From: Kushneria indalinina DSM 14324
GTDB taxonomy: Bacteria; Pseudomonadota; Gammaproteobacteria; Pseudomonadales; Halomonadaceae
Direction: 5' to 3'
Assembly (NCBI RefSeq): GCF_003385845.1
Contig: NZ_QRDJ01000008.1
Location: forward strand, 62,001-126,000
Length of the DNA: 64,000 nucleotides
The translations under genes were made by a program, and so were the position numbers. This document shows positions 50,861-59,129 of the stretch, piece after piece (position 1 is the first letter of the stretch; each line of letters starts with the position of its first letter). The notes beneath the pieces are model-generated. The model saw only the letters and a list, made by a program, of their open reading frames with translations, made no database searches and was not told the DNA's origin.

Positions 50861-50973
50861 TTCATCTGCTGCTTGTCGACGTTTTCAGGCCATGGGCATA
50901 CTGGAACATCCGTCCCGGTGCGACCGCGCCATGGCGCTTCAATCCTGCCTGATGCCCTCTCAAGGAGCTGGTG

Positions 50974-52179
50974 ATGTCCTATACCGTGCCCGATATCGAA
51001 CCTCTGGAATCCATCCTGCCCGATGAGCCGCTGCTCATGATGGGCGCGGGCCCCGTACCCATTCCGGCTCGGGTGGCGGCGGCCAACGGCATCGTCATCA
51101 ACCATCTGGGCGAGACCATGGCGCGTATCATCGAGCAGGTGAAGGCGATGTCGCGCTACGTCTTTCAGACCGAATCACGCCACATTCTGGGCGTGGCCGG
51201 CCCGGGTTCGGCGGCAATGGAGATGGCCGTCATCAACCTGGTCGACCCCGGCACCCGGGTGCTGACGATCAATAACGGCTTTTTCAGCAGCCGGCTGGGC
51301 GAAATGGCTCGGCGTGCCGGCGGCGAGGTCATGGAGATGGATGCCGGCGTGTCGCATGCCGCCGACGAGGCCGCCGTCATCGAGGCGATCCGCACGCATC
51401 GCCCGCGCGTATTGACCATCGTGCAGGGGGAGACCTCCAGCACCGTGCTCAACCATACCCTGCCGGCCATCTGTCGGGCGGCATCAAAGGCCGGCTGTCT
51501 GGTGATCTGCGATGCGGTCTGCACGCTGAGCACCCTGCCGCTGGAGATGGATGCCTGGGGCGTGGATGTGGTGATTACCGGCGGTCAGAAGGGGCTGAGC
51601 TCGATCCCCGGCGTGTCGTTGATCGCCTTCTCCGACCGGGCCTGGGCGGTCATCGAGGGTCGGGAGCGCACCCTGACCCACTGGTGTCTGGATGCCCGCC
51701 TGGCGCACCAGTTCTGGTACAACAAGTCCTACCACTACACGGCGCCGGTGTCGGGCATTCTGGCACTGCATGAAGCGCTGCGGCTGGTGTGTCAGGAAAC
51801 CCTGCCCCGACGCTTTGATCGCCACCTGCGTTGTTCCCGGGCGCTACAGGCCGGCATCGAGGGGTTGGGGCTCGGGCTTTATATTGAAGGGCCGTCGCGG
51901 CTGAACTCGGTGGTCGGCATTCATCTGCCCGAGGGGCTGGCTCAGGCCGATCTGATGCAGCATATCTCCTGTCATCACGGCGTGGAGATCTCCGGGGCCT
52001 TTGGCGCCAATATCGTGCGGATCGGGCAGATGGGCGAGCAGTGTCGCACGCACCATCTGTTTCGCACCCTGCACGCGCTGGGCACCAGCGTACGCTCGCT
52101 GGGCTACAAGGTTGACGTGCCCGCCGGTGTGGCGGCGCTGGAGCTGGCGCTAGCCGGTTACCAACCGGTCTATGCCTGA
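50974..52179 (+). CDS. Class V aminotransferase (alanine/serine-glyoxylate type)
   Basis: The 401-residue PLP enzyme has the class V layout: MMGAGPVPIP near the N-terminus, GVAGPGSAAMEMAV, and the PLP lysine Lys206 in GGQKGLSSIPG. It resembles alanine-glyoxylate, serine-glyoxylate and related (pyridoxamine-pyruvate type) aminotransferases. Which amino donor it uses is not clear. The ATG at 50974 has AAGGAG exactly 6 bases upstream, better than the GTG at 50971. It is followed by a strong terminator. Confidence 0.85.
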   Translation: MSYTVPDIEPLESILPDEPLLMMGAGPVPIPARVAAANGIVINHLGETMARIIEQVKAMSRYVFQTESRHILGVAGPGSAAMEMAVINLVDPGTRVLTINNGFFSSRLGEMARRAGGEVMEMDAGVSHAADEAAVIEAIRTHRPRVLTIVQGETSSTVLNHTLPAICRAASKAGCLVICDAVCTLSTLPLEMDAWGVDVVITGGQKGLSSIPGVSLIAFSDRAWAVIEGRERTLTHWCLDARLAHQFWYNKSYHYTAPVSGILALHEALRLVCQETLPRRFDRHLRCSRALQAGIEGLGLGLYIEGPSRLNSVVGIHLPEGLAQADLMQHISCHHGVEISGAFGANIVRIGQMGEQCRTHHLFRTLHALGTSVRSLGYKVDVPAGVAALELALAGYQPVYA

Positions 52180-52243: not shown

Positions 52244-54418
52244 TCAGGTCGTCGCTACCCCCGGCTTGTCGTCGCCGTTGCGGCCGCGCCGCTGCAGAAT
52301 GATCAGAGCTGCGGCGATGGCGATACCGGCCAGGTCGGTATAGATACCGCCATAGATCATGCACAGCGCACCCAGGAACATGACGACCCGCTGCCACGCC
52401 TTCACCGGGCCAAAAAACCATGCCTGCACGGTGGCGGAGAGCAGCACAATGCCCATGGTGGCAGTAACGGCGACGCGGGCGATCTGCAGGGCGCTGCCCT
52501 CCATCAGCATGGCCGGGCTGTAGAAGAACATGAAAGGTACGATGAAGGCAGCCAGACCGATCTTGAACGAAGCCACCGACGTGCCCATGGCGTTGTCTCC
52601 CGAAATGCCCGCCGCGGCGTAGGAGGCCAGTGCTACCGGTGGTGTGATCGCCGAGACCACCGCAAAGTAGAACACGAAAAAGTGCGCGATCAGCGGCTGA
52701 ATGCCGATACCGATCAGACCCGGTGCGACCACCGAGGCGGCCACCGCATAGGCTGCGGTAGTCGGCATGCCCATTCCCAGCAAAATGCTGATCAGCATGG
52801 CGAAGAACAGCGCCAGCAGCTGACTGACGCCGGCCAGGCCCAGCAGCAGCGAGGAAAAGCGCGCGCCCACTCCGGTGAGACCGATCACGCCGACAATCAA
52901 ACCGGCGCAGGCGCACACCGCGATGATCTGAATCGACATCGTGCCGCCCAGCTGCAGGGCGCGCAGAATCGCCGCCGGGCCCATCTTGTTGGGCGAAATC
53001 CAGCTGACGATGGCCGCCGAGGCGGTGGCCAGGGTGCCGGCACGAATCACCGAGTATCCCATGAACAGCGCCGCCACCAGAATAATGATGGGAGCGAATA
53101 GATAGACGTGGCGCGCCAGTTTCGAGAACTTCGGAATTTCATCCCGGGTCATGCCACGCATGCCCTTGCGGGCGGCCTCGAAGTCGACCATGAAGTAGAC
53201 CGAGGCGAAGTAGAGAATGGCCGGGATGATCGCCGCGATGGCGATCTCGGTATAAGGGATACCGGTAATCTCGGCCATGATGAAGGCGCCTGCCCCCATG
53301 ATCGGCGGCATGATCTGCCCGCCGGTGGAGGCCGCGGCCTCAATGGCGCCGGCGCTACGGCCCGGATAGCCCACCCTTTTCATCAGCGGAATGGTCAGCG
53401 AGCCGGTCGAGACCACGTTGCCGGCGCTGGTGCCGTTGATCATGCCCATCAGACCGGAAGCGAAGATCGATACCTTGGCCGGCCCGCCGCGGGCACGACC
53501 GGCAGCAGCGAAGGCAAAATTGACGAAGTAGTCCCCCACCTTCGAGGCCTGCAGGAAGGCGGCGAAGATAATGAACAAAATGATATAGGTGGAAGAGACA
53601 GCGGTCGTTGGTCCCAGCACGCCGGCGTCGGTGTAGACCTGGCTGAAAAAGCGGTTGAGCGTCAGTCCCGGATAGCCGAGAAAGCCGGGCAGGAAGGGGC
53701 CGGCAAAGACGTAGGCAATGAAGATTGCAGAGATGACCACCAGTGCCATGCCGGCCACGCGCCGGGTCAGTTCCAGAATCAGCAGTGAGCCGGCGATCGC
53801 CGCCCACGAGATACCGATTGGTGCGAAGGCGGTACCGGTCGAGGCGCGCAGCGGCGAGTTGAACATCAAAAGCAGATAGCTGGAGGCAGCGGCCGCACAC
53901 ACCATTAATACCAGCTCGGCGATCGGCAGGCTGCCGCGTGGCCGGCGGATCAGCCACGAGAGCACGATGGCGCCAACGGTGGCAGCGATCAGCGGTGTGC
54001 CGAAATGCCAGGTCTCGACTGTCGGGTCGATGCGCATGGCGCCGCCGGCCATGGTCTGGCGCATCACAAACACCTGCACCAGGGCGTAGAGGGCCGGCAG
54101 CAGCAGCACGGCGGCAAGGCCGTCGAGCCAGCGCGGCGAGAGTTGATGGCCGTTTTCGGCGAAGCGGGCTCCGGTATAGAGACCAAAACCAAGAATCAGC
54201 GCGCCGCAGACGTGCAGGATACGAAACGTCCAGGTTTCGATCGGGTAAACGTTGAGTGAAATCAGGTGAAAGCTGGTGTAGGCCACGGCCATGATGGCGA
54301 ACAGCCACCACTGCCAGCCGGCGAAGACGCGCCGGCTCGGCTCGACGACATCGCTGTCGACGCCGTCGGCGATGATCATGTCATTTTCGGGCTTTTGCCC
54401 TTCTTGTTGCCTGGACAT
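52244..54418 (-). CDS. TRAP transporter fused permease (TAXI type)
   Basis: The 724-residue protein is the intact fused 4TM-12TM TRAP permease. It has the DctM-like segments GGPAKVSIFASGLMGMINGTSAGNV and EAAASTGGQIMPPIMGAGAFIM, and many helices throughout. It works with the TAXI binding protein encoded immediately upstream on the same strand (63 bases). This intact copy serves as the reference for the frameshifted permease at 5541. The sigma-54 promoter and DctBD genes upstream imply regulation by an external organic acid. Confidence 0.92.
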   Translation of the reverse strand: MSRQQEGQKPENDMIIADGVDSDVVEPSRRVFAGWQWWLFAIMAVAYTSFHLISLNVYPIETWTFRILHVCGALILGFGLYTGARFAENGHQLSPRWLDGLAAVLLLPALYALVQVFVMRQTMAGGAMRIDPTVETWHFGTPLIAATVGAIVLSWLIRRPRGSLPIAELVLMVCAAAASSYLLLMFNSPLRASTGTAFAPIGISWAAIAGSLLILELTRRVAGMALVVISAIFIAYVFAGPFLPGFLGYPGLTLNRFFSQVYTDAGVLGPTTAVSSTYIILFIIFAAFLQASKVGDYFVNFAFAAAGRARGGPAKVSIFASGLMGMINGTSAGNVVSTGSLTIPLMKRVGYPGRSAGAIEAAASTGGQIMPPIMGAGAFIMAEITGIPYTEIAIAAIIPAILYFASVYFMVDFEAARKGMRGMTRDEIPKFSKLARHVYLFAPIIILVAALFMGYSVIRAGTLATASAAIVSWISPNKMGPAAILRALQLGGTMSIQIIAVCACAGLIVGVIGLTGVGARFSSLLLGLAGVSQLLALFFAMLISILLGMGMPTTAAYAVAASVVAPGLIGIGIQPLIAHFFVFYFAVVSAITPPVALASYAAAGISGDNAMGTSVASFKIGLAAFIVPFMFFYSPAMLMEGSALQIARVAVTATMGIVLLSATVQAWFFGPVKAWQRVVMFLGALCMIYGGIYTDLAGIAIAAALIILQRRGRNGDDKPGVATT

Positions 54419-54449
54419 GGTGTGTTACCTCAAATGAGTCGAAAAACGG

Positions 54450-54473
54450 CGCCGCCCCAAGGGCGAGGCGGCG
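54450..54473 (-). other. Intercistronic stem-loop between TAXI binding protein and permease
   Basis: CGCCGCC and GGCGGCG pair with a 10-base loop in the 62-base gap after the binding-protein stop. No T run is present. It parallels similar hairpins in the mtl, dctPQM and pst operons. Confidence 0.55.
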
Positions 54474-54480
54474 ACGTGCG

Positions 54481-55494
54481 TTACTGACGAATCAGCGACG
54501 GATCGATCTCATGACCGTTCTCCTCGTACCAGCGCACGGCGCCCGGGTGATAGGGCAGCACGGTGTTGTGTTCAAGATTCTCCGGCACGCTGTTGGCGGC
54601 GCTGCGGTGGATGTTACGCATGCGGTCATTGTTTTCCATGCTCAGCTTGACGACCTGATAGACGAACTCCTCGGGCAGATCGCAGTTGGCGATGGTGAAG
54701 TTCCACATCGATACGGCGCGTATATCCCGATCCAGCGTGCTGTAGGTGCTGGCGGGAATGGTGAACGGTGCCACCGGGAATTCTTCGACAACCGTCTCCT
54801 GCTGCGCTTCGGTGAACTCGACGAAATTGACACCTGTCTGCACTTCCAGCTGGCTGACCGCCGGGATGGGAATGCCGGCCGCGAAGGCCACGACGTCAAT
54901 CAGACCATCCTGCAGCTGACTGCCGAGATCCGACCAGCCGCCGTTGCGACGCTCGTAATCCACTCCAAGGGTGGTCAGGATATCCGGGAAGTAGGTGTCG
55001 GAGGTGGACGCGGCGGGGCCGAAGCCGATGCGCGCGCCGTCGGGAATGCTGTCGATACTGTCGATGCCGCTGCTGGAGAGCGCCGCCACCGAGAAGGGCG
55101 TTTCGTACATGGGAAACAGCGCACAGACGTTGTCCATTTCCATGCCCGGTGCCAGCGGGCTTTCACCGTTGAGCGCCTGGGCTGCCGGGCCCATGGTGGT
55201 CAGACCCAGCGCCACGTCGCCGCTGTGGACCAGCGCCATGTTCTGGGTCGGACCGCCGGTGATCTCGCCGCCGCCGGAGACGCCCAGCTCATCGGCGATC
55301 AGGTTGGCCCAGCCGGAGCCGTAGACATAGTAGGTGCCGCCCTGGCTGGCGGTTGCGACAGTGATGCTGCTCGGCCAGTCGCTGCGGTCCACGCTGTCAC
55401 TGGCCTGGACAGCGCTGATGGTGGCCAGCGAGGTGACTGTGGTCATGGAGGCGGCGACAGTCATGGCAAGGGTGTTACGGGACAGAATCTGCAT
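54481..55494 (-). CDS. TAXI family TRAP transporter solute-binding protein
   Basis: The 337-residue protein has a signal peptide (residues about 1-31, cut near VQASD). Its mature TAXI fold has ATASQGGTYYVYGSGWANL, GGGEITGGPTQNMALV and RIGFGPAAST segments. It captures a small organic acid for the fused permease. It is preceded at about 80 bases by a sigma-54 promoter candidate and two enhancer-like repeats, with genes for a DctB/DctD-like pair upstream. GGGAGC precedes the ATG. Confidence 0.9.
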   Translation of the reverse strand: MQILSRNTLAMTVAASMTTVTSLATISAVQASDSVDRSDWPSSITVATASQGGTYYVYGSGWANLIADELGVSGGGEITGGPTQNMALVHSGDVALGLTTMGPAAQALNGESPLAPGMEMDNVCALFPMYETPFSVAALSSSGIDSIDSIPDGARIGFGPAASTSDTYFPDILTTLGVDYERRNGGWSDLGSQLQDGLIDVVAFAAGIPIPAVSQLEVQTGVNFVEFTEAQQETVVEEFPVAPFTIPASTYSTLDRDIRAVSMWNFTIANCDLPEEFVYQVVKLSMENNDRMRNIHRSAANSVPENLEHNTVLPYHPGAVRWYEENGHEIDPSLIRQ

Positions 55495-55573
55495 GATGGG
55501 AGCTCCCGCTATGATCGGACTTTTTTTGAAATGACACCGAGCGCGGTGTCGGTGCGCGTCACGTCATGAGAGG

Positions 55574-55590
55574 GGCAAACGGTGCGCCAT
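55574..55590 (-). promoter_or_regulatory. Candidate sigma-54 (-24/-12) promoter for TAXI operon
   Basis: On the minus strand, TGGC and TTGC lie at the correct sigma-54 spacing: GG and GC are separated by ten bases (55589 to 55575). The flanking positions deviate from consensus. It faces the TAXI gene start at 55494, leaving a leader of about 70 bases. The adjacent NtrC-family activator gene and upstream repeats support the assignment. Confidence 0.6.
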
Positions 55591-55669
55591 GCGCCTTCTT
55601 TGATAATAATTTCAGTGTCTTGGGTTTTATTGATGCAACTTTGGTCGGGCGTGGCGCGAGGCCGAAGTG

Positions 55670-55718
55670 GCGGATATCCGCATTCTTGCACATGAAGGCT
55701 GTGCGGAAATCCGCACAG
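55670..55718. promoter_or_regulatory. Tandem GCGGA-N2-TCCGC repeats, candidate DctD enhancer sites
   Basis: Site 1, GCGGATATCCGC (55670-55681), and site 2, CTGTGCGGAAATCCGCACAG (55699-55718), share the core GCGGA-N2-TCCGC. Their centres are 33 bases apart, about three turns of DNA. Both lie some 100-140 bases upstream of the sigma-54 promoter candidate, the usual place for NtrC-family enhancer sites. Binding by the adjacent DctD-like protein is inferred. Confidence 0.6.
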
Positions 55719-55846: not shown

Positions 55847-57233
<1,387 letters not shown>

Positions 57234-57241
<8 letters not shown>

Positions 57242-59129
57242 TAGCAGGCGTCTCCGGGGGCAGGGCGCGTGGTGTCGCGACGGCAGGTAGATGGATAATG
57301 AACAGTGCCCCGCCTTCGGGGCGGTTACGGGCTTCGAGGCGACCACCGAGGTCACTGATGATGCGCTGCGAAATCGACAGGCCCAGCCCCAGCCCCTTGC
57401 CGGCGGCACGCGTGGTATAGAAGGGCTCGAAGAGGTGATCGAGTGCCTCGGCGCTGAGTCCCGGGCCGCTGTCGGCCACGCTCAGGATAACCCATTCATC
57501 GCGGTGTTCGGCACTCAGTATCAGCTGTCGCTCGGCACTGTCGCACATCGCCTGCTGGGCATTGCCGATCAGGTTGACCAGCACCTGCTCCAGCCGTACC
57601 GAGTCGGCACGCACCCAGCAGGTCGCCTCACTCATCTGCAGCCTTACCCGGATATCGGCCGCCTCCAGGCGAGCGCGAAACAGGCGTAGCGCGTAGTCGA
57701 AGCACGCCTGAGCCGAGACGTCGGTCAGGGTGTCATCACCCTTGCGCGAGAACTGACGCAGCTGAGCGCTGATGGCGGCCATGCGTTCGACCAGTTCACT
57801 GATCTGCACCAGGTTGTCGGCGGCGGCCTCGGGACGACCGCGTTCCAGCAGGATGCGGGCGTTGTCGGCATAGGCGCGAATGGCACCGAGCGGCTGGTTG
57901 AGTTCGTGGTTAATGCTGGCGGCCAGCTGCCCCAGTACCGCCAGTCGCGCGGCCTGCACCAGCTCGTCACGGGTCTGGCGCAGGCTCTCCTCGGCGCGCT
58001 TGCGCTCCTCGATCTCCTGCGACAGCTGTCGATTGGACCCCATCAGTTCCCGTGTACGCGCCTCGACATGGCGTTCCAGCTCATCGCGGGCGTGTGCCAG
58101 GGTGTGACGTTCGCGTTCGGCGAAGCGCTCGCGTTCACGACGCAGCCGACGGCGCTGCCAGCCAATGGCGCCTCCCAGTGCGAGCAGCATCCAGCTACCG
58201 CCGGCGCCCAGCGCCCCCAGCCACTGCGCCTGCGTTACTGGCGCCAGAGGCTGCAGAATATTCAGGCGCCAGTTGAAGCGTGCCAGCGGCTGTGAAAGGT
58301 TCAGATAGTCACGACCGTCAAGACGCATCAGTCGGGCGCCGCCGGGCAGCGTCTCAAGCACGTCAAATCCTGCCTCGGGCAGCGGGTCATCGGTATAGCG
58401 CCGGGTCGCCAGCAGCCCGCGGCGCACGCCCTCTGAAAGAGGCTTTAGTGCGGTCAGGCGCAGGTCGGGATTGCTGGCCATGAAGATGATACCGTTGGCG
58501 TCGGTGACCAGCAGGGTGGCGTCGAGACTTTGCCACTCGCGCTCGATCCCCTCGAGTCCCACCTTGACCACCATTACCCCATCAGGTGGCGTCTCCGATG
58601 TTCTGCCATTGGCCCACACCGGCGCCGAAAAATAGTAACCCCGTTTTCCCGACTGGGTGCCGAGGGCGTGGAAACGACCGCCGTGGCCGCTGATGGCCTG
58701 ACGATAATAGCCCCGAAAGGCATAGTTCTGGCCCATGAAACTGTCGGCGCGCTGCCAGTTGCTGGCAGCAATGGTGGTGCCGCCGCGGTCGAGCAGATAG
58801 ATATCCGAGACGTCCGCGTAGGCCCGTGAGCGATTCAGCAGCCGATTGAGCGCCGGAACATCGCGGATGTCATGTGGCTGGGCAAGAAAGCGCCGCACGC
58901 TCTCGCGGGTGGCCAGCAGGTGGGGCAGGTAGTCGTGGCGGGTAAGATAGCCGGTGAGGTTGGCGCGTGACAGCTGCAGGGCGTTACCGGCGGTGTGATG
59001 AAGCTCCGCCAGCGCCCACTCGCGGGCCAGCCGCGCGCCCTGCCACATAACCAGCAGCAGCGCGATGCTGACCGCCAGCACTACCAGCATGCGCCGGCGT
59101 CCGATGCGTCGTTGCGGCGTATCCCTCAT
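57234..59129 (-). CDS. dctB: DctB-like sensor histidine kinase
   Basis: The 631-residue protein has a first membrane helix (about residues 13-32), a periplasmic sensor domain (about 35-300; Cache-like in size and layout, as in DctB) and a second helix (about 306-325). These are followed by a coiled-coil linker (about 330-385) and a kinase core with His408 in SINHELNQPLG, plus N, G1 and G2 boxes (NLIGNAQQAM, DSGPGLSAEALDHLF, GKGLGLGLSIS). It senses an extracellular acid and phosphorylates DctD. It overlaps dctD. Confidence 0.92.

Follow-up and report, generated by a model that had tools for sequence, protein, structure and literature searches.

A predicted DctBD/sigma-54 circuit controlling a TAXI-type TRAP transporter in Kushneria indalinina and its family

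The window analyzed here, a 64,000-nucleotide stretch of the Kushneria indalinina DSM 14324 genome, carries on its minus strand a sensor-regulator gene pair followed by a pair of transporter genes. The transporter pair consists of a TAXI solute-binding protein (SBP) of 337 amino acids (54481-55494) and a fused TRAP permease of 724 amino acids (52244-54418). The SBP scored 171.2 bits against TIGR02122 (curated cut-off, 84.35), and the permease, which also matches PF06808, scored 609.4 bits against TIGR02123 (curated cut-off, 320.65), the two profiles whose combination marks a TAXI-TRAP system. NMT1_3 (PF16868) was the only Pfam match of the SBP and TRAP_TAXI its only NCBIfam match; with no match to PF03480 in the Pfam and NCBIfam profile search, it is not a DctP family SBP. 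The 62-base gap between the two genes (54419-54480) holds a G+C-rich inverted repeat followed by T's, spotted by eye, which is possibly a transcript-balancing hairpin. On the plus strand, a class-V aminotransferase gene (50971-52179) converges with the permease gene; BhcA and PhnW are among its best NCBIfam matches, both under their cut-offs. A second TAXI-like system also lies on the plus strand of the window (SBP from about 4047, permease from about 7000), with 25% identity to the first in the SBP and 35% in the permease, and neither of the core sites described below occurs near it.

Directly upstream of the TAXI pair, and overlapping each other by 8 bases, are genes for a 631-amino-acid sensor kinase, dctB (57234-59129; dCache_1, HisKA, and HATPase domains), and a response regulator, dctD (55847-57241; 464 amino acids from the ATG at 57241). 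DctD combines a receiver, a sigma-54 AAA+ domain with the GAFTGA motif at residue 224 of 464, and a Fis-type HTH, the architecture of a group I enhancer-binding protein. The longer start that would give a 520-amino-acid open reading frame is unlikely because many relatives have stops inside the full-length match. Searched against PDB sequences (E 0.01), the DctB sensor region gave three matches with E values from 7e-33 to 2e-32, as would a DctB-type periplasmic sensor: 2zbb and 3e4o, which carry the name DctB and include that of S. meliloti, and 3by9, which is titled "Sensor protein" and which we take to be V. cholerae DctB. For neither regulator was an NCBIfam equivalog over its cut-off found among the best 25 matches listed for each. 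The genome contains a single copy of rpoN. Domain and curated-profile matches thus bear out the dctD- and dctB-like genes and the TAXI SBP with fused permease that an earlier note had read from the sequence.

The gap between dctD and the TAXI genes holds the elements of a putative sigma-54-dependent promoter with two enhancers. The distal one, UAS2, is a 20-base inverted repeat at 55699-55718 with 9-base arms flanking a central AA; it holds TGTGCGGAAATCCGCACA, and its core, GCGGAAATCCGC (55703-55714), starts 125 bases upstream of the -24 box. The proximal one, UAS1 (GCGGATATCCGC, 55670-55681), is a dyad that starts 92 bases upstream of the box, both distances being counted from the first T of TGGC. 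The two GCGGA-N2-TCCGC cores lie 33 bases apart, as the earlier note had stated; it had placed them about 100-140 bases upstream of the promoter, in place of the 92 and 125 measured here for the cores. The promoter itself is TGGCGCACCGTTTGC (55575-55589, minus strand). Its GG-N10-GC spacing is right for a -24/-12 element, as claimed, and the spacer between TGGC and TTGC, previously given as N8, is N7. Read on the minus strand toward the TAXI genes, the order is UAS2 (55718-55699), UAS1 (55681-55670), and promoter (55589-55575). With this spacing, its conservation in the family, and rpoN in the genome, the element has the features expected of a sigma-54 promoter.

Pattern frequencies alone would leave room for a reading of the dyads as chance palindromes, with TAXI genes that are constitutive or controlled otherwise. 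The -24/-12 pattern by itself is not rare: 4.5 occurrences would be expected in the window, and 2 were found. For GCGGA-N2-TCCGC the expectation is 0.24 and the window has two, a count reached in 1 of 100 shuffles. Throughout the genome (3,752,699 bases), the scan proposed in the earlier note found it in five places, and the three besides UAS1 and UAS2 all lie inside long open reading frames. The core is not enriched as such genome-wide, since its backward-read control occurs in 24 places. We considered a larger DctD regulon in this genome and discarded it, given that the three other core sites fall within long open reading frames; a near-match with one mismatch, on contig C7, lies between open reading frames that are not transport-like by eye. 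The weight of the enhancer and promoter evidence is therefore in position and conservation, not in the rarity of the patterns. Both of these argue against chance, as does an exact match to a published site, and we consider that reading hardly credible.

The R. meliloti DctD-binding sequence is given as TGTGCGgaaatCCGCACA, from the original binding-site papers as cited in a passage of PMC11077940, which also describes two DctD sites upstream of Rhizobium dctA. Positions 55700-55717 of the window, within UAS2, are identical to this sequence in 18 of 18 bases, and UAS1 in 12 of 18. The exact sequence TGTGCGGNNNTCCGCACA occurs at one place only in the genome, that of UAS2. Allowing up to 3 mismatches, it was found 45 times on the forward and 40 times on the reverse strand, and the backward control gave 56 and 64, so the 18-mer has no excess of near-matches over the control, which is what chance palindromes would also give. 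TGTGCGG-N3-TCCGCACA, the predicted recognition site of DctD, is thus present at the locus, and it is conserved in the family.

Relatives of the regulator on plasmids are consistent with this assignment. In both of the two records opened (of 503 matched), the DctD relative adjoins a kinase and a dicarboxylate symporter gene (Sinorhizobium mexicanum, 56% identity; Azospirillum ramasamyi, 58%). The Azospirillum dctA (symporter) promoter beside its own dctBD has two DctD-type sites 34 bases apart, the 18-mers starting 93 and 59 bases upstream of a -24/-12 box; at the S. mexicanum locus, no DctD site with up to 4 mismatches was found before the symporter gene. Another activator of this type (AauR or MifR) was considered and is disfavored by the site identity, the sensor match, and the two symporter-linked relatives, which favor DctD. 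Judged by site, sensor, and relatives, the window regulator is DctD-like, and the sigma-54 circuit proposed in the earlier note is supported by the 18/18 site, the S. meliloti DctB among the sensor matches, and rpoN. Like the Sinorhizobium/Rhizobium DctBD-dctA circuit, the window has a DctB-type sensor, a receiver-AAA+-HTH activator, tandem DctD-type sites, a -24/-12 promoter, regulator genes adjoining the transporter, and a distal site with 18 of 18 bases in common. It differs in its transporter, a TAXI TRAP system instead of the DctA symporter, and in an additional dyad, resembling an ACTU motif, between enhancers and promoter.

We then compared 151 family genomes, drawn evenly from a larger family group. 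TAXI proteins were matched in 97 of these at E 1e-60, with at least 68% identity in 91. Upstream DNA was available for comparison from 89 of these 91 genes, together with 3 second copies and 4 more distant copies; G032 and G035 (partial genes) and G026, G054, and G086 (three of the six whose TAXI is only 50-54% identical) were left out. Each region received a composite score (maximum, 28) for matches to UAS2, UAS1, and the promoter at fixed geometry, and 480 shuffles gave a mean of 17.0, a 99th percentile of 20, and a maximum of 22. Among the 83 TAXI genomes with dctBD, from 13 genera, 76 scored above 20 and 53 above the shuffle maximum of 22, counts that are not independent because the genomes are related, and for a geometry that was taken from the window and from loci of the relatives. 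The 92/125 spacing was exact in 60 of the 76 passing regions. The proximal site is degenerate in most relatives, with at least 8 of 10 bases matching in 31 of 83. Seven of the 83 failed the 99% level (L041, L042, L066, L076, L095, L105, and L121), six of them from genus g11. Three of the four distant copies scored above 20; the 54% TAXI copies of three genomes (L122-L124) have DctD-type sites with scores of 22-23. At locus L220, the more distant TAXI gene is located past prlC, and another TAXI SBP gene comes after it.

The family amounts to a natural experiment in which a genome may have the transporter genes without the regulator genes, or the reverse. None of the six TAXI genomes lacking a DctD match at E 1e-130 passed, and none scored above 17; dyads, promoter, and the other conserved promoter elements were all missing upstream of TAXI in 6 of 6. 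Likewise, none of the three second TAXI copies in dctBD-carrying genomes has the sites, and none scores above 19. The earlier note had staked its reading on the sites not being lost in relatives that keep the genes: sites and promoter are kept in 76 of 83 dctBD genomes and in 0 of 6 without DctD, and the alignment of the gap that it proposed recovered the conserved enhancers and -24/-12 box along with two further conserved elements that it had missed, one IHF-like and one ACTU-like. Five of the dctBD-less genomes belong to genus g19 and one to g20, which suggests, as a count made without a tree, that dctBD was lost at least twice; in L126 and L131, yrdA and lldR adjoin with no dctBD between them. 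The five g19 promoters without dctBD (L126-L130) have a different repeat in common, TTCAACGTT(C/T)GTTCAG, which suggests that TAXI has come under another regulator there. Conservation at fixed spacing in 13 genera and absence without dctBD are the evidence against chance palindromes, and by comparison across the family, control of TAXI by DctBD and sigma-54 is well supported. Two broader pattern searches were set aside. A gapped family-wide pattern failed as a target finder, its backward control matching as often or more in most genomes, and its one use was to point to dctP in genus g7. Counts of the core pattern in six genomes that have dctD and lack TAXI were uninformative, with 7-20 places per genome against 24-50 for the control.

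TAXI (at least 68% identity) and DctD (at least 67%) occur together in 85 of the 151 genomes, another 6 have just the TAXI and 9 just the DctD, with a 54% TAXI in three of the 9; since the genomes are related and the identity cut-offs were picked after viewing the lists, Fisher values for this co-occurrence overstate its significance. The pairing that the earlier note called unusual is thus common in the family, and it stands out only against the searchable literature. Among the 112 genomes with a DctD of at least 57%, 85 have TAXI only, 20 have only a DctP ortholog (at least 63%), and none has both. The remaining 7 have neither transporter at these cut-offs, and 6 of these carry a 50-54% TAXI. 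This class includes G067 (DctD of 68% over a partial match) and excludes G042 and G065 (DctD of 54-55%), both of which have a DctP at 55% and no TAXI match. The single genome with both transporters, G051, has no dctBD. All six g19 genomes with dctBD and no TAXI match have a DctP ortholog of at least 77%. In two of these genomes, G062 and G098, about 2.4-3.1 kb separate DctP and prlC; reading toward prlC, G062 has dctPQM followed by a superoxide dismutase gene, and the order at L211 is dctPQM (pointing at prlC), a Cu/Zn superoxide dismutase gene, and prlC. In G104 and G019, DctP lies about 10 kb beyond prlC, and in G091 and G038 it lies elsewhere. Some genomes of the window genus that have the TAXI also have a separate DctP family, at 57-59% identity, and the window genome also encodes 13 DctP-type SBPs and 3 SDF carriers; the pattern is therefore an either/or choice under one regulator and not a shortage of transporters.

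All 21 DctP upstream regions were scanned for two dyads 32-35 bases apart followed by a -24/-12 box, and 210 shuffles gave a 99th percentile of 21 and a maximum of 22. In dctBD genomes, 14 of 20 DctP promoters scored 23-26, above the shuffle maximum, namely 6 of 6 in g19, 6 of 6 in g7, and those of G022 and G024. Spacing in g19 was 90/123 in four genomes, 89/122 in one, and 100/133 in one; the g7 dyads are 34 apart, at 112-133 and 146-167 bases from the box instead of 92/125, and the -12 half of this promoter is TCGC. The six g5 promoters scored 20-21, not above the 99th percentile, and that of G051, which has DctP without dctBD, scored 19 with no dyad reaching 9 of 10. With sites at 6 of 6 g19 DctP promoters and none at the g19 TAXI promoters without dctBD, the sites go with dctBD for both transporters in this genus, and across the family the enhancers are found with the regulator, whichever of the two transporters is present. 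In 5 of the 6 g7 genomes, the DctD match ends before or inside the HTH, though the DctP enhancers (L206 and L217-L219) look DctD-type; the DNA-binding domain of DctD is unproven in these five. The DctBD-linked DctPQM systems resemble the window in having the same regulator pair in the family and, in 14 of 20, paired dyads with a -24/-12 box. They differ in the binding protein, which according to a passage of PMC12344293 has no similarity in sequence between DctP and TAXI systems, in the permease, which is a single fused protein in the window, and in the dyad that resembles ACTU, which is absent from the 6 of 6 DctP promoters scanned.

This dyad, CCCGACCAAAGTTGCA, lies at 55634-55649 on the minus strand and starts 60 bases upstream of the -24 box, as a candidate CrbR/ErdR site. 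When 76 of the 83 main rows (score of at least 21) were aligned on the -24 box, a conserved TTCGAC-N4-GTCGAA dyad started 60 or 61 bases upstream of it, with AC-N4-GT invariant in the best dyad per row in 76 of 76 promoters. The ACTU motif is needed for CrbR activation of acs in P. fluorescens (from a passage of PMC5715377). A matrix built from the TAXI promoters gave the four published ACTU sites 17.3, 18.5, 1.3, and 9.3; the window dyad, at 14.4 against a median of 21.9, is the top site in the window, and the best site upstream of the genome's own acs gene reached 12.4. Assignment of the dyad as an ACTU-type CrbR site is thus suggestive, not proof. We also considered that TAXI promoters without dctBD might keep the dyad, which is ruled out by its absence there.

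The invariant AC-N4-GT at so regular a distance, with two of the four published sites scoring 17-18 and the other two 1.3 and 9.3, could be taken to mean that the promoter works chiefly through CrbR and sigma-70 under acetate-type conditions, with the DctD sites as a secondary input. The ACTU promoters of acs and actP in CrbS/R (MxtR/ErdR) systems have an inverted repeat of the same TTCGAC-N4-GTCGAA type; there it precedes a putative sigma-70 promoter, whereas the window dyad lies between the DctD sites and the sigma-54 box. All 84 aligned rows (81 of the 83 main rows and the three 54% TAXI loci) retain GG and GC of the -24/-12 box, partly by construction, no -10 box was established, the dyad is missing where dctBD is missing, and it was absent from all six DctP promoters scanned. 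A mainly CrbR-driven promoter is therefore very unlikely in our estimate, and a CrbR input added to the DctD/sigma-54 promoter may exist. The second conserved element, CAAGACACTGAAA (YAAN4YTGWW; 55610-55622, minus strand), was found from column counts over the same 84 promoters: most rows have a YAA-N4-YTG block upstream of the -24 box, at a distance of 33 to 21 bases (A 83, A 74, T 76, and G 76). We take this block to fit the IHF consensus. It may be an IHF site that provides an input to the TAXI promoter; an A+T-rich spacer or second promoter would also fit.

Taken together, these comparisons make it highly probable that the locus is a DctBD/sigma-54 circuit controlling a TAXI-type TRAP transporter, which most likely imports a dicarboxylate as DctPQM does. 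In the proposed circuit, DctB would use its periplasmic dCache domain to sense an organic acid outside the cell, most likely a C4-dicarboxylate, and would phosphorylate DctD, which would then oligomerize on UAS2 (55699-55718) and UAS1 (55670-55681). A bend in the DNA at the IHF-like element (55610-55622) would bring DctD to the sigma-54 RNA polymerase at 55575-55589, and transcription of the TAXI SBP and permease genes would start near 55563. The transporter tied to DctBD in the family is either TAXI or DctPQM, and TAXI would therefore most likely do the job of DctPQM and import a dicarboxylate; on the same grounds of regulator and either/or pattern with DctP, the candidate substrate would be succinate, fumarate, or malate.

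L-glutamate is described as a common TAXI ligand in passages of PMC12344293, PMC11574862, and PMC12632250, so the system might instead be a glutamate transporter for which DctBD was recruited to serve an acidic amino acid. VcGluP, TtGluBP, and the P. mirabilis alpha-ketoglutarate TAXI system share with the window pair the TIGR02122 SBP and TIGR02123 fused permease, and the passages describing these characterized systems mention no link to DctBD or sigma-54. In a phmmer alignment, the pocket tyrosine Y45 of VcGluP corresponds to Y55 of the window SBP, which would suit glutamate. The side chains at the amino-group contacts differ (Q93 to T100 and E125 to T132), as do S75 (P82) and H123 (Y130), by an alignment of low identity on which the residues were placed by hand; T100, T132, P82, and Y130 are invariant in eight family members. 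These changes weakly disfavor glutamate, and given the regulator and the DctP either/or pattern, which favor a dicarboxylate, a glutamate transporter seems quite unlikely.

The DctBD circuit itself is already known, and what is new here is its predicted control of a TAXI transporter. No paper joining TAXI with DctD or DctBD was found in the open-licence literature, outside of which most subscription papers lie, and in the passages concerned the TAXI literature describes few substrates and no regulator. A well-studied regulator with a published binding site that points at a TAXI system thus predicts a substrate class. More tentatively, and as less likely than not, we consider the full picture in which one DctBD is tied through the same kind of enhancer to DctPQM or to TAXI, whose binding proteins are unrelated. 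The TAXI system would in that case import C4-dicarboxylates and be the first in the searchable literature that classical DctBD controls, from a promoter that would join DctD/sigma-54 and CrbR-type acetate inputs within about 145 bases.

The genes around dctBD bring in a further candidate substrate. Adjacency of dctBD and TAXI, which the earlier note had described, holds in three genera, g1, g2, and g4 (inferred to be Kushneria, Chromohalobacter, and Salinicola); in the other loci fetched, the two are about 5 to 14 kb apart. Direct adjacency is thus a local arrangement, and the sites are the common factor. The loci fetched from most other genera have lut-type genes and an FAD-linked oxidase gene divergent from lldR-dctB-dctD, which is followed by a YdjM-like gene, by yrdA and an SNF-type transporter gene on the opposite strand, and then by prlC and the TAXI pair. 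An lldR gene adjoins dctBD in 11 of the 15 genera for which the dctB side was fetched, and was not seen in g1, g2, g4, and g24. Neighbor names (lldR, lut, yrdA, prlC, and D-lactate-dehydrogenase-like) were given by eye, with one representative of each checked against Pfam; the matches (GntR-FCD, CCG, LUD/LutB_C, LUD, Lactate_perm, FAD_binding_4, hexapeptide, SNF, Peptidase_M3, and DctP) fit the names without proving them.

The lldR linkage makes lactate a candidate substrate, and the circuit could be right with dctBD as a lactate or short-chain acid module and TAXI importing lactate or a related monocarboxylate. The lldR-like GntR-FCD gene could mean a lactate-related signal, lutABC-type genes and the divergent oxidase gene often stand beside lldR-dctBD, and the TAXI promoter contains an acetate-type ACTU dyad. 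A lactate permease homolog lies near lldR-dctBD or the lut cluster in L138, L139, L143, and L207 (Lactate_perm match in L143). Set against this, the sensor matches DctB structures, the alternative transporter of the same regulator is DctPQM with DctD-type sites, and no lldR was found in the 11-13 kb upstream at loci of the window genus, Salinicola, and Chromohalobacter (names inferred) or in the 4.9 kb of the window itself. We thus regard a lactate module as unlikely and retain a dicarboxylate as the predicted substrate. At loci of several genera (L132-L137 and L140-L143), the dctB homologs match in two pieces roughly 140-350 bases apart, and they seem to contain an extra stretch after the sensor that is missing from the window DctB.
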